Below, piece after piece: positions 10,982 through 31,912 of a stretch of 35,296 bases of DNA (position 1 is the first letter of the stretch; each line of letters starts with the position of its first letter). A model generated the notes under the pieces. That model saw nothing but the letters and a program-made list of their open reading frames with translations. It made no database searches and had not been told where the DNA came from. Position numbers and translations under genes: made by a program. This DNA is from a virus. Location of the stretch: positions 594 to 35,889 of IMG/VR virus record IMGVR_UViG_3300030107_001766, one strand, 5' to 3'.

Positions 10982-11001
10982 CTACTACAGTAGACAAAAT
11001 A

Positions 11002-11024
11002 AAAGGGGGAATTTATCCCCCTTT
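11002..11024 (-). terminator. Rho-independent terminator after the 129-aa gene
   Basis: AAAGGGGGA (11002-11010) and TCCCCCTTT (11016-11024) form a 9-bp stem with a 5-base loop. On the minus strand the stem is followed by TATTTTG. It begins 4 bases after the stop codon of the leftward 129-aa gene, making that gene a separate transcript. Confidence 0.75.
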
Positions 11025-11027
11025 ATA

Positions 11028-11417
11028 TTATGTAGTAATTCTTAGCTTTTGGATTCTGCGTTTTTCCTTCACATTTTCTGCGATTGAAAGTCCTTTATTC
11101 CATTTATAGTATGGAACTCCTACTTCCTTTACGAACGCTTTAACTTCAATAGTTCTTAGCTTTACAAGAAGTTCTTTATTTTCTTGTAAATCACCAAGTT
11201 TATCTTTGATATCATCAACTTTAATGTCGGCTTTATTAACGCCCATTGAAGCTGCTGCATCAGGAGATTCTAGAAAAGCTATATGAGATTCCAAATCAGC
11301 TTGTGAATTTTCGTTCAAATCAATAGCTTTGTCGATAACTCCAATTATCCCTTCAAGTAAATATTTGGTAGTAAAATCGTTAAGCTTTGAAATTGCTGTC
11401 GAATTAACAAGAGTCAT
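11028..11417 (-). CDS. 129-aa hypothetical protein, isolated first leftward gene
   Basis: I do not recognise this protein. It has 129 residues, mostly helical: an N-terminal part (LVNSTAISKLNDFTTKYLL, EGIIGVIDKAIDLNEN), a central acidic helical part (KADIKVDDIKDKLGDLQENKELLVKLRT) and a basic end (NVKEKRRIQKLRITT). It is the gene nearest the noncoding hub, has a dedicated leader hairpin that covers its GGAGA ribosome site, and ends in its own terminator. This isolated, structured transcript suggests an abundant or tightly controlled early product, perhaps a host-takeover or regulatory protein; that is inference from layout. Confidence 0.75.
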   Translation of the reverse strand: MTLVNSTAISKLNDFTTKYLLEGIIGVIDKAIDLNENSQADLESHIAFLESPDAAASMGVNKADIKVDDIKDKLGDLQENKELLVKLRTIEVKAFVKEVGVPYYKWNKGLSIAENVKEKRRIQKLRITT

Positions 11418-11422
11418 ATTTT

Positions 11423-11514
11423 TCTCCGTTTTGGTTAAGAGGCGGAACCCATTTCTCGCCTATCAGCCCTCAGGCAGGCGCAGAAAAGGAACGTTCGCCT
11501 CTCCAAAACGGAGA
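11423..11514 (-). promoter_or_regulatory. Two-stem leader hairpin burying the ribosome site of the 129-aa gene
   Basis: TCTCCGTTTTGG (11423-11434) is perfectly complementary to CCAAAACGGAGA (11503-11514). Inside it, GAGGCG-AAC (11439-11448, one extra G) pairs with GTTCGCCTC (11493-11501). A further GC-rich internal set (TTTCT/AGAAA, GCCT/AGGC, GCC/GGC) fills the top. On the minus strand the ribosome site GGAGA is the final part of the outer arm, 5 bases before ATG 11417. It resembles a translation switch, riboswitch or protein-binding leader; I cannot match it to a known class. Confidence 0.65.
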
Positions 11515-11521
11515 CAAATAT

Positions 11522-11660
11522 GGTGAATTGTTAATTTGACCATAGCTATTTCTGCTTAACGATTTTACCCCTCCAAATATTTATGCTATCACCTTTTTTC
11601 AAGGTGATATGAAGGTATAATTGAGAGATATCCAAAGGTATTTATTTTAACAAATTCACC
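11522..11660 (+). ncRNA. 5' part of the structured hub: competing stems and a hairpin
   Basis: GGTGAATT-GTTAA (11522-11534) can pair over distance with TTAACAAATTCACC (11647-11660), 13 bp with one bulge. It can instead take part in a local TATGGT/ACCATA hairpin. Between the arms a perfect 8-bp hairpin ATCACCTT/AAGGTGAT (11588-11608) is followed by a TATAAT at 11616-11621 with no convincing -35 box. A local ACAAAT/ATTTGT hairpin competes with the 3' arm. No gene is seen. Confidence 0.4.
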
Positions 11661-11674
11661 TGATTTGTAATTGA

Positions 11675-11702
11675 GTATTAGGTTTTCTTTATCTCCTGAT
11701 AC
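11675..11702 (+). ncRNA. Hairpin with a G-U pair in the structured hub
   Basis: GTATTAGG (11675-11682) pairs with CCTGATAC (11695-11702). One position is U-G on the plus strand and would be an A-C mismatch on the minus strand. This mildly favours the plus strand as the RNA strand. Confidence 0.4.
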
Positions 11703-11737
11703 AGCATTGTGTAAATGAGGTGTTAATCAAACGAATA

Positions 11738-11743
11738 TATAAA
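11738..11743 (+). promoter_or_regulatory. Possible -10 box before the nested-stem domain
   Basis: TATAAA lies at 11738-11743. A transcript starting about 7 bases later, near 11750, would begin just before the first long arm at 11757. The candidate -35 (ATGAGG, 17 bases upstream) is poor, so this is weak support. Confidence 0.25.
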
Positions 11744-11756
11744 GTTCTGATATTAA

Positions 11757-12004
11757 AGATAAACGCCAATGATTTACTTGAAAATCAATAATGATATGTA
11801 ATGCTTAGAACTATTTAATTAATAGTGTTCGTTAAGGAAGTCATCTAGGTGTTCCTACTATCAATGGGATATCTAGGTCTTTCTCGTAGACAATGTGTTT
11901 AGGTAAAACCATAATATAAATGCTTAGTTTTACTTCATAATATAAAGGCATAAATTCACTTTAAATTGGTCTACTGATAGATGACTTCCTATTGGCGTTT
12001 ATCT
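11757..12004 (+). ncRNA. Nested long-range stems, core domain of the candidate large structured RNA
   Basis: AGATAAACGCCAAT (11757-11770) is the exact complement of ATTGGCGTTTATCT (11991-12004), 14 bp. Inside it, AGGAAGTCATCTA (11835-11847) is the exact complement of TAGATGACTTCCT (11978-11990), 13 bp. The two 3' arms are contiguous, so the stems could stack. The 5' arms are separated by 64 bases holding hairpins GATTT/AAATC (11771-11786) and GAAC-TATT/AATA-GTTC (11808-11830). The inner loop holds GTAAAAC/GTTTTAC (11903-11933). This reads as a folded branched RNA; a DNA-level origin or recombination site is the alternative. Confidence 0.6.
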
Positions 12005-12008
12005 ATCG

Positions 12009-12148
12009 ACTAGGCTTATTAGTTTTCGGCATACGCCTCAACTAATCACACCCCCAATAAGCCATGTTTCGCCATTCGGCTACACATTAGAGTTACGGCA
12101 TACGCCTTCACCTAAAACATTCCGCCCTTCGGCTACACTAGGCTTATT
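12009..12148 (+). repeat. Tandemly repeated hairpin module with alternative partners
   Basis: Direct repeats: ACTAGGCTTATT at 12009-12020 and 12137-12148; CGGCATACGCCT at 12027-12038 and 12096-12107; TTCGGCTACAC at 12075-12085 and 12128-12138. AATAAGCC (12056-12063) is complementary to GGCTTATT in either outer repeat (12013-12020 or 12141-12148), so two exclusive folds are possible. Small GC hairpins alternate: GGC-ATAC-GCC, GCC-ATTC-GGC, GGC-ATAC-GCC, GCC-CTTC-GGC. It is noncoding in both strands as far as I can see. Confidence 0.6.
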
Positions 12149-12156
12149 TCAAGATG

Positions 12157-12209
12157 TTGTATGTCGTCAGCAATTTCTTGTACTAAATCTGGTGTGCGTT
12201 GACATACAA
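12157..12209 (+). ncRNA. Closing stem just upstream of the small terminase gene
   Basis: TTGTATGTC (12157-12165) is the exact complement of GACATACAA (12201-12209), 9 bp around a 35-base loop. The 3' arm contains a perfect TTGACA, so the same bases may serve as a promoter -35 box. No T-run follows, so it is not a terminator on the plus strand. Confidence 0.45.
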
Positions 12210-12226
12210 AAATAAAGGTTTATTAG
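12199..12226 (+). promoter_or_regulatory. Possible promoter of the late packaging/morphogenesis block
   Basis: TTGACA (12199-12204) is followed after 16 bases by TATTAG (12221-12226), or after 19 by TAGTAT. A start near 12233 would leave only a few bases before ATG 12239, giving an almost leaderless message. The -35 is perfect but the -10 is mediocre. Confidence 0.4.
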
Positions 12227-12238
12227 TATAAGAGACTT

Positions 12239-12619
12239 ATGCCTAATACTCCCACAATTAAGAACTTAACGCATAGACAACGCACACTTGTTGATACTAT
12301 TGTATCACAAGATATTAGCGTAACAAAAGCTGCTGAAATTGCTGGATATGCTAAGGGTGAGAGTGGTAGAGTAGTAGCAAGTAAAACATTACGATTACCA
12401 CATGTACAAGAGTATATGATGCAACAAGTAGGGCAACACCTCACCCTTTCAAGCATATCTTCTGTGAAACGACTACGACATCTTGTTGACCATGCTCGTT
12501 CAGAGTATGTTCAGCTCGAAGCTAGTAAGGATATCTTAGATAGAGTAGGGTTCAAGCAACCTGATAAGGTTAGACATACTCTGGATGGTGATATCAGCGT
12601 CAAGATAGATTTATCTTGA
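12239..12619 (+). CDS. terS: Terminase small subunit
   Basis: The 126-residue protein has an N-terminal helix-turn-helix typical of small terminases: 'LTHRQRTLVDTIVSQDISVTKAAEIAGYAKGESGRVVASKTLRLPHVQEYM'. This resembles the Terminase_2 family 'xxAAxxAGYxxxxxxxxxAxxxLxxPxVxxxM'. The C-terminal half ('SVKRLRHLVDHARSEYVQLEASKDILDRVGF') is the usual helical oligomerisation region. It would recognise the packaging site on concatemeric DNA and deliver it to the large subunit encoded at 13623. It is the first gene of the rightward block. The ribosome site is weak (AGAGA), which fits a near-leaderless start. Confidence 0.78.
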   Translation: MPNTPTIKNLTHRQRTLVDTIVSQDISVTKAAEIAGYAKGESGRVVASKTLRLPHVQEYMMQQVGQHLTLSSISSVKRLRHLVDHARSEYVQLEASKDILDRVGFKQPDKVRHTLDGDISVKIDLS

Positions 12620-12836
12620 GTCGCTGATACCTACTACATGGTCAAGGGGGTGTGATATAGTATATAGAGGTAGGGGGGTTTAAAAAACACATGTCCTTAT
12701 AGCTAGTGGTAGTTCACAAGCAATTATAGTCAAAAAGGTTCGGTATGAGAAAAGTGCGTAGACAAATAGAACAAAATATATTTTACTGCTTGACAGGTTC
12801 AGATATGAGCTTATGTGGTTTTTGATTGAACGATAA
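12620..12836 (+). other. Noncoding gap after terS; possible packaging site region
   Basis: This 217-base gap holds a G-run (GGTAGGGGGG around 12672), TACCT/AGGTA arms and a TTGACA (12790-12795) with a poor -10 (TATGTG, 16 bases later) that might serve the small genes at 12837. A 26-codon frame (12745-12825) is the only open frame worth naming. Packaging sites often lie beside the small terminase gene, but no diagnostic site is visible. Confidence 0.35.
12745..12825 (+). CDS. Doubtful 26-aa frame
   Basis: It begins 'MRKVRRQIEQNIFYC' after a weak AAGG element and encodes 26 residues. It fits between terS and the next small gene, but without overlap or a strong ribosome site it may be chance. 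Confidence 0.22.
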   Translation: MRKVRRQIEQNIFYCLTGSDMSLCGF

Positions 12837-29300: not shown

Positions 29301-30200
29301 TTTACTGGAGTATTAGGACAACATAGAATGGTTAAACATAGTCTTGAATGGAGTAAAGGAACTATAAAACCAAATGATATGAAATGGTTATTAGAAGTAG
29401 GAATAGACCAAAGAAAAGCATTAAAAATTGTAAAAGAATTAAATGCTGGTAATATACAAAGAGGAGATAATATTTTTTTAATGAATACTATGTCTTGGGG
29501 TGACCAAGAACTAGCTCATTATGTTCGTTCACATTTATCAGATGAAATAGTTAGAACTATTGTAACTCCTAGAGCTGCTGATAGACCAAATCTTATGGAT
29601 GGAGTATTAAAAATAGCTACAGGAAGAACAGCATCAGGACAAAAAAAATATTTTAGAGCTGATTCTTCTGGTTTTAGTATGCCATTTCAATTCTTATCTT
29701 ATGGAATGTCAGCTACTTCTAAGATTATGTTAGCTGGATTACAAAGACGAGATGCTGCTACTATGTCAGGACTTGTAGCTATGATGACATTAGGTTATTT
29801 CTCAGCAAGATGGAGAGACCCTTATTGGGATAAGAAAACTTTTACTGAACAAACAATAAGAGTAATAGAATTAACAGGTATGTTAGGTGTAGTTAATGAT
29901 ATGAATATAATGTTAGAAACATTATCAGGTGGACAATTAGGAGCAAGACCAGCTTTTGGAGCAAGACCTTTATTTGGTGAAGTTAATATGGGAGATAGAT
30001 TGGGTGAACCTTTCGGACCGGGAATTAATATGGTAACTGAAGCAATATGGGCTATGACTTCAGATGATGCAACAAGAAATGATAGAGCTGCGATTGTGCG
30101 TAGACTAATTCCTTGGAACAATTTATGGGTATGGAAAGACTGGTTTAGACAAGCAAGTGAATCTGCATATGGAACTTTAATAGAAAAGGAAGATAATTAG
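26391..30200 (+). CDS. Largest internal virion protein, gp16-like
   Basis: The 1269-residue protein is the longest gene and takes the gp16 position. It has a hydrophobic Gly-rich region at about 145-215 ('[30 protein letters not shown]', '[20 protein letters not shown]'), a long helical body and basic segments near the end ('[23 protein letters not shown]'). The lytic transglycosylase domain found at the N-terminus of T7 gp16 is not evident. It would be ejected to span the inner membrane. Its stop overlaps the next GTG start. Confidence 0.72.
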
Positions 30201-31912
30201 TGGCACATATTACAATATCAGATAATGCTCCTAGAGTACAGATAACAGGAACAACAAGTGTTGGTCCACACGCATATAATTTTGAGATATTTGCTGATGC
30301 AGATTTAAAAGTATATATTAATGATACTCTTAAAACTTTAACTACTCATTATACTGTAGCTGGAGCTGGTGAATCAGGTGGTGGTAGTATTACCTTTACT
30401 GGTGGTAATGCTCCTTCTTCTTCATCAGATGTTATAACTATTCAAAGAGATATAGCAGTATCAAGAACAACAGATTTTGCTACTTCTGGTAGTTTTCAAA
30501 TAGATTCTTTAAATACAGAATTTGATAAACTAACAGCAAAAGTAGCTCAACAAGAATTTAATATTAGGAGAGCTCCTCTACTTAAAGCAACTACAGTAGA
30601 TGCTAACCTAGACGAAACATTTCCTGACCCTGTAGCACACAAAGGAATTAAATGGAACAGTTCAGCTAATGCCTTAGAAGCAGTACATTTAGATTTTAGT
30701 GCTGCTGTTTCAACTGTATCTGTAGGTAATCCAGCAACTGCAGCTTTAAATACAACTACTGGAGTTTTTACTTTTGGTATTCCAACTGGAGCAACAGGAG
30801 CAACAGGACCAACAGGACCTAATGGTCCAACTGGTCCAAGTGGACCGACAGGACCTAGTGGACCGACAGGTTCAACAGGTTCAACTGGACCTGCAGGACC
30901 GACAGGACCTAGTGGACCAACTGGACCTAGTGGACCAACAGGACCAACTGGACCTAGTGGACCAGCGGGTTCTGGTTCTATGACAAACTTTGTATTAGAG
31001 GATGATTCTGGTGATGAAGTTTCAATTGAAGATGGAAAAGAAATTAAGTTTATTGGCTCTGGTATTACAACAAACTGGACTGATACTTCTCATGGTACTG
31101 ATGGTGACCCATACGATTTAACTTTTACTGTTGATGCAGCACAAACTGGAATTACTTCCATGTATGCTACTGATTTAATTTTAGGTGAAGATGCAGAAAC
31201 TGCTATTGATTTTGGAACTGCAAATGAAATTGATTTTAAAGCTGATAATGCTGCAAGGTTAACATTAACTGCTTCTTCTTTATATCCAGTAACTACTAAT
31301 CAAATTGATTTAGGAACTGCTTCTTATGAATTTAAAGATGCTTTCTTTGATGGCACAGTAACAGCAGATGCTTTTGCTGGACCATTAACTGGTAATGTAA
31401 CAGGTAATGTTTCTGGTACAGCAGCTACTGTTACTGGAGCAGCACAATCTAATATTACTTCTGTTGGAACTTTAACTACTTTATCTGTAGATAATATTAC
31501 TGTTAATGGAAATGACATTTCTTCTACAGATACTAATGGAAATATTACTTTAACTGCTAATGGCACAGGTAAAATACAATTTAATGATTTAGCTTATATT
31601 CCTCAACAAGCAATTACTTCATCTTCAAATGCTGTTGCTTGGGATGTTCAAGCAAAACCAAATGCTTATCATCAAACTTCAGAAAATACGACTTTTTCTG
31701 CACCAACAAATGGTGTTGAAGGAGCTTTTATTTGTTTAGAAATTAATTATAATGGTTCACATACTATTGGGTGGAACACAGTTTTTGAATTTGCTGCTTC
31801 AACTGAGCCAACTGAAACAGCAACAGATGGCAAAACTGATATTCATGTATTTAGATACAATGGAGCTATCTGGCAAGAAGTAGGTAGAACAATGAATTTA
31901 AGTGAGAGTTAA
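30200..31912 (+). CDS. Tail fibre protein, T7 gp17-like N-terminus with collagen-like stalk
   Basis: The GTG start overlaps the previous TAG. The 570-residue protein has three parts. Residues 1-150 ('[38 protein letters not shown]', '[27 protein letters not shown]') match the T7 gp17 N-terminal attachment domain. Residues about 197-258 are Gly-X-Y collagen-like repeats. The rest is beta-rich, with repeating '[11 protein letters not shown]' and '[16 protein letters not shown]' typical of marine phage fibres. It would attach to the tail and carry receptor-binding modules encoded next. Confidence 0.85.
30788..30976 (+). repeat. Collagen-like Gly-X-Y repeat tract
   Basis: Repeats of GGA/GGT-ACA/CCA-... 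encode about 20 Gly-X-Y triplets, mainly GPT, GPS and GAT, in the stalk of the tail fibre. Units such as '[16 protein letters not shown]' recur nearly identically at DNA level, so length changes by slippage or recombination are likely between relatives. Confidence 0.85.

Follow-up and report, generated by a model that had tools for sequence, protein, structure and literature searches.

The window, by which we mean the whole stretch of 35,296 nucleotides analyzed, makes up most of a 35,889-base viral record (IMG/VR IMGVR_UViG_3300030107_001766), and its genes are arranged as in a pelagiphage-like podovirus, a marine phage. Lysis genes lie at the left end, and a leftward early module and a rightward late module diverge from an intergenic region that holds the hairpin array studied here. 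The closest cultured relative found was Pelagibacter phage EXVC031P Hodr (OQ414635), whose TerL is 66% identical; the title of record OQ414635.1 (L081) names EXVC031P Hodr while its locus tags read EXVC032PBaldr, possibly a labelling slip. Comparison of contig ends for a physical genome end near the terminase small subunit gene (terS) gave no common end sequence. The features of the locus are as follows, with relatives designated by L numbers.

left end of the window: lysis genes
ending at 11417, leftward: early module with RusA, exonucleases, a RecE-like gene and a regulator
11028..11417, minus strand: early gene, first of the leftward module, 129 aa, template of the inverted copy; no PHROG match
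11483..11976: copy of the early gene plus its 5' region, inverted and non-coding, ~70% identity
11978..12004: tail, forming perfect helices with two parts of the inverted copy, 11835-11847 (13 bp) and 11757-11770 (14 bp)
12009..12020: left-hand outer copy ACTAGGCTTATT, particular to the window and not conserved
12019..12045: hairpin 1, TTAGTT-TTC-GGC-ATAC-GCC-TC-AACTAA, window-specific
12046..12055: conserved box TCACACCCCC, to the left of P1, present in the window, L001 and L005 and in variant form in L094, L006, L009 and L093
12056..12063: 5' arm of the P1 stem, AATAAGCC, pairing with 12141-12148; position conserved, sequence covarying
12065..12086: hairpin c', TGT-TTC-GCC-ATTC-GGC-TAC-ACA, with a 21-nt exact match (12065-12085) to a hairpin of L094
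12087..12115: hairpin b', TTAG-...-GGC-ATAC-GCC-...-CTAA
12116..12140: hairpin c'', TCC-GCC-CTTC-GGC-TAC, outer stem degenerate
12141..12148: 3' arm of the P1 stem, GGCTTATT
12150..12238, plus strand: conserved block upstream of terS with a -35 box TTGACA at 12199-12204, probably the late promoter
12239..12619, plus strand: terS (PHROG 2538, E 6.8e-8)
from 12239, rightward: late module, terS followed by terL, portal/adaptor, capsid and tail genes

The array lies ~90 nt upstream of terS, immediately before the promoter of that gene, and adjoins its conserved -35-like box. It consists of four short imperfect hairpins, three in the apical loop of P1 (two of the GCC-NTTC-GGC type and one of the GGC-ATAC-GCC type) and one to the left of a conserved CACACCCCC box. 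An earlier note on this DNA had described a motif set occurring twice and alternating mini-hairpins of these two types, and both descriptions held. All repeats and arms were in place, with ACTAGGCTTATT at 12009-12020 and 12137-12148, GGCATACGCC at 12028 and 12097, GCCATTCGGC at 12071 and GCCCTTCGGC at 12124, and they exceeded chance when the 160-nt region was compared with 2000 dinucleotide shuffles. A 12-mer occurred in duplicate in 0.1% of the shuffles, the eight duplicated 10-mers observed were matched in none, and an 8-mer present twice together with its reverse complement, the three-arm arrangement, arose in 0.55%. GGCATACGCC alone is rare in the window (two exact occurrences; 0.3 expected with one mismatch allowed), and GCCNTTCGGC alone is not (20% of shuffles). 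The mini-hairpins form a tandem array closed by AATAAGCC/GGCTTATT that folds better than shuffled sequence, with z-scores of -3.1 on the plus and -2.95 on the minus strand; the homologous module of L094 gave -4.85 and -3.4 on its two strands.

The array adopts a single fold and is no two-state switch. The same note had proposed a choice of pairing partner giving two exclusive folds, and this did not survive. The right pairing, 12056-12063 with 12141-12148, dominates on both strands (pair probability 0.988 on the plus and 0.962 on the minus strand), whereas the left pairing reaches 0.005 and 0.000, respectively, and forcing it costs 4.4 kcal/mol (plus) or 9.6 kcal/mol (minus) relative to the right one. 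When the arms were compared for covariation in relatives, only one outer arm proved to be conserved: the left copy of ACTAGGCTTATT was not found in L094, L001, L005, L006, L009 or L093, the very outcome that the note had named as refuting its reading. RNA switches as a class have two conserved helices of similar stability, and the array was rejected as a member given a left helix with a probability of at most 0.005 that is absent in L094. That the left pairing plays a kinetic part while plus-strand RNA is being transcribed is conceivable, but nothing supports it. Rfam returned no matches at the gathering score and sub-threshold matches only at a permissive threshold, ARAGORN identified no tRNA or tmRNA, and no intrinsic terminator (a GC stem followed by a T run) was found at 11380-12300.

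Only one other phage with the array was found, L094, which carries it at the same site and has a terS 79% identical to that of the window. In its array P1 is ATTATGCC/GGCATAAT and the hairpins number three, including the one with 21 bases identical to 12065-12085; the P1 bases of the two phages differ on both sides of the stem with pairing kept. The phages with terS 96–97% identical to the window (L001, L005, L006 and L093), as well as L009 (79%), have no array. At the same spot between the conserved flanks they hold only a small hairpin, AAGC-TNT-GCTT or ATTAAC-TCC-GTTAAT, of 4–6 bp with a 3-nt loop. The P1 hairpin is kept where the array is missing, and the array is an optional filling of the P1 loop. 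P1 is thus conserved in position and pairing and not in sequence, and the array is a lineage-specific expansion, which one other phage shares and the nearest relatives lack.

Across 83 non-redundant relatives the structure signal had local maxima at about -120 and -300 with respect to terS, and many of these phages have strong hairpins of unrelated sequence at -100 to -150; folding showed no general strand bias. In L069, L044, L050, L051 and L056 the hairpins upstream of terS at the place of the array share a CTTTG-NCGNNA-CAAAG core with differing outer stems, and L069 has two of them. A DNA search of known phages with the array module returned nothing significant. Among viral contigs, the exact-motif matches lay in contigs unrelated by alignment and in a levivirus-like contig, the latter judged a chance match, and the combined two-hairpin pattern matched only L094. 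The same pattern gave 19 matches in genome contigs, which came from taxonomically scattered genomes and were read as chance. Taken alone, the array is a case of the known variable intergenic hairpins of phages, a local instance of fast hairpin turnover beside a promoter; the inverted gene copy next to it matters more.

The array sits at the terS-proximal end of this copy, between it and the late (terS) promoter region. The window has no long inverted repeat other than the one of ~1 kb at 10988-11976, which consists of the coding gene 11028-11417 as left arm and a non-coding right arm. We scanned the interval between early gene and terS in 76 non-redundant relatives with a suitable gene, window included. 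An inverted copy of the phage's own first early gene was present in 37 of these 76 loci, not all of which are phylogenetically independent, and a direct-orientation copy in none; roughly half of the relatives had no detectable inverted copy. In 32 of the 76 loci the own gene/copy pair scored above all cross-genome pairs, and the genes copied belong to several unrelated families.

Identity between gene and copy is 84.7, 84.2 and 84.1% at codon positions 1, 2 and 3. The match is therefore not at the level of protein, and a paralogous divergent gene, a pseudogene conserved as protein, was rejected for want of excess identity at positions 1 and 2. The long arms are all ~68–74% identical, none of the 37 copies is fresh or near-identical, and exact runs of at least 12 nt are rarer than random mismatch scatter would give (2.3% vs 6.0%). 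Differences by base were C 25%, A 18%, T 17% and G 10%; adenine-specific mutagenesis of the kind caused by diversity-generating retroelements was rejected on this spectrum, in which differences are frequent at C and T as well as at A. A>G and C>T differences outnumbered G>A and T>C (351 vs 120), and since these sites are not more isolated than transversions, deamination fits too, besides wobble pairing on the plus strand. Folding energy, wobble asymmetry and composition single out neither strand as the one of action.

In some lineages the copy tracks its gene. In three groups (the window, L001 and L005; L038, L051 and L067; L145, L158 and L171) the copy follows changes in the gene with odds ratios of 4 to 15 and p down to 1e-32. 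Between the window and L001 there were 17 tracked and 0 swapped changes (odds ratio 14.6, p 1.5e-11), and between L051 and L038 there were 91 tracked and 2 swapped. No tracking was seen in L006/L009/L094, L164/L166/L167 or L012/L014/L017. Positions of mismatch are also shared far above expectation (105 vs 39.5 expected for the window and L001), at a median of 3–5 nt from tracked sites. The survival of mismatches next to tracked sites disfavors tract gene conversion as the only process. The two tail helices of 11978-12004 change in step in the window, L001 and L005.

As the likeliest reading, though only at a probability of roughly one in three, we propose that the intergenic region is a structured, base-pairing boundary element between the early and late modules, with the array as its end domain. 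The region would act by base-pairing with early-gene sequence, as a structured transcript or as a single strand, and so might help to separate the leftward early from the rightward late module. P1 and its hairpins would form the terS-proximal end, a stable end or insulating structure in which the fold is kept and the sequence matters little. We count in favor of this proposal the retention of P1 without the array, P1 pairing kept despite base changes, module z-scores of -2.95 to -4.85 and the structure peaks and strong hairpins upstream of terS in relatives, together with the recurrent inverted copy of the own gene, its identity independent of codon position, the tracked changes, the shared mismatches and the tail helices changing in step. 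Counted against it are an array confined to two phages, lineages without tracking, the lack of a general strand bias in folding, base differences that deamination would explain as well as wobble pairing, and the absence of a detectable copy in about half of the relatives. No consistent promoter was found on either strand to make the putative RNA across the region.

A more far-reaching form of the proposal strikes us as rather unlikely. It holds that a large group of marine podoviruses keeps, beside whichever gene comes first in the early operon, a non-coding inverted partial copy of that gene whose imperfect complementarity, with short helices and fixed mismatches, is selected. The copy would then control early expression by base-pairing in cis, which would make it the prokaryotic equivalent of a hairpin-RNA locus, and the array would be its variable end domain.

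The main rival to the boundary element is replication template switching, to which we give only slightly less weight. Strand switches of the polymerase would create and re-homogenize inverted repeats, and array and copy would be functionless products in a tolerant intergenic region. Such switching is documented to create and maintain hairpins (PMC8794818) and to homogenize the arms of inverted repeats and invert their spacers (PMC8604942). In its favor, the tail joins two reverse-complement pieces of nearby sequence, and non-matching segments holding mutual reverse complements are modestly enriched (46 vs 31.9 expected). The scarcity of long exact runs does not fit, nor do the right arms of L006, L009 and L094, which are conserved about as well as their genes (0.89–0.90 vs 0.90–0.92). 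The fixed mismatches beside tracked sites and the lack of fresh copies count against template switching as the sole cause. The template-switch-derived RNA hairpins described by Monttinen and Loytynoja (2022, PMC8794818) resemble the present locus in that stem arms change together and contain reverse-complement copies of nearby sequence. They differ in that here the arms that pair are a gene encoding a protein and a non-coding copy of it ~500 nt long, and that the mismatches occupy fixed positions.

That the dyads are instead DNA-level sites, bound by or extruded for a phage protein such as a late-promoter regulator or a packaging or replication factor, appears improbable. The position next to terS and its promoter, a structure signal equal on both strands and the conserved flanks CACACCCCC and CAAGATG are all in keeping with such a site. 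The hairpin sequences, however, vary widely among phages whose TerS is 96–97% identical, a poor fit to sequence-specific recognition by TerS.

Highly improbable, in our judgment, is a reading in which the hairpins belong to the leader of the leftward early transcript and act on RNA polymerase in the manner of HK022 putRNA. By eye, the minus strand reads as GNAN tetraloops and several 3x3 internal loops of GNA/GNA (GTA/GAA, GTA/GGA, GGA/GGA), and G-U pairing would allow P1 to be lengthened into the conserved flanks. HK022 likewise has small hairpins in a phage regulatory region at early genes, but put exerts its effect on RNA polymerase while itself nascent, in the course of early transcription (PMC9378689), and here no matching promoter was found. 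By consensus, no conserved leftward promoter lies to the right of the array, though the host's promoter rules may differ, and close relatives lack the array.

We give very little credence to insertion of a mobile palindromic element of REP or MITE type with the 12-nt repeat as target duplication. Presence and absence between close relatives and the 12-nt direct repeats at both array ends would suit it; yet the array is single-copy in its own genome, pattern matches elsewhere look unrelated, and the only other carrier, L094, shares the site and lacks the 12-nt repeat. REP and MITE elements occur as several dispersed copies, and the array was rejected from that class on its one place in the genome and the shared site in L094. 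To the two-state RNA switch we assign almost no weight: AATAAGCC can pair with each of the two GGCTTATT copies, but the left state barely forms and its copy is not conserved.

If selected, the inverted gene copy would represent a form of phage gene control that we did not find described in the literature searched, which yielded no paper on an inverted gene copy of this kind; if mutational, it would document, in nature and on a large scale, how templates are switched in phages. Hairpin-RNA loci of Drosophila arise by inverted duplication of their targets. Inverted, imperfect non-coding sequence complementary to a gene is common to such loci (PMC10292708, PMC10317233) and the present one. The present case differs in involving a phage and a bacterial host without RNAi, in that one arm is the gene itself in cis, and in being known from sequence alone. 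EXVC031P Hodr (OQ414635) shares the divergent layout of the window, and its early gene has a weak inverted copy scoring 35.6 bits, but the phage has neither the array nor a long inverted repeat.

Several further repeats were noted. An inverted repeat TCACACCCCC (12046-12055)/GGGGGTGTGA (12646-12655) lies on both sides of terS, and a second G run follows GGGGGTGTGA at 12673-12678. Many relatives (e.g. L158, L164, L171, L041 and L044) have two G runs with few bases between them upstream of terS, GGGGGGG-AACACAA-GGGGGGG being one example. These runs lie directly 3' of a promoter-like TTGACA...CATAAA/GATAGT, where transcription presumably starts or close to that point. The gene at 30200-31912 contains imperfect direct repeats at 30782-30972 (~75%, 72 nt apart). 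Imperfect palindromes of ~98 bp occur in BcepC6B (L196, 1-98), just upstream of the first genes and terS, and in Vibrio phage VA-RY-3 (L197, 6802-6895).
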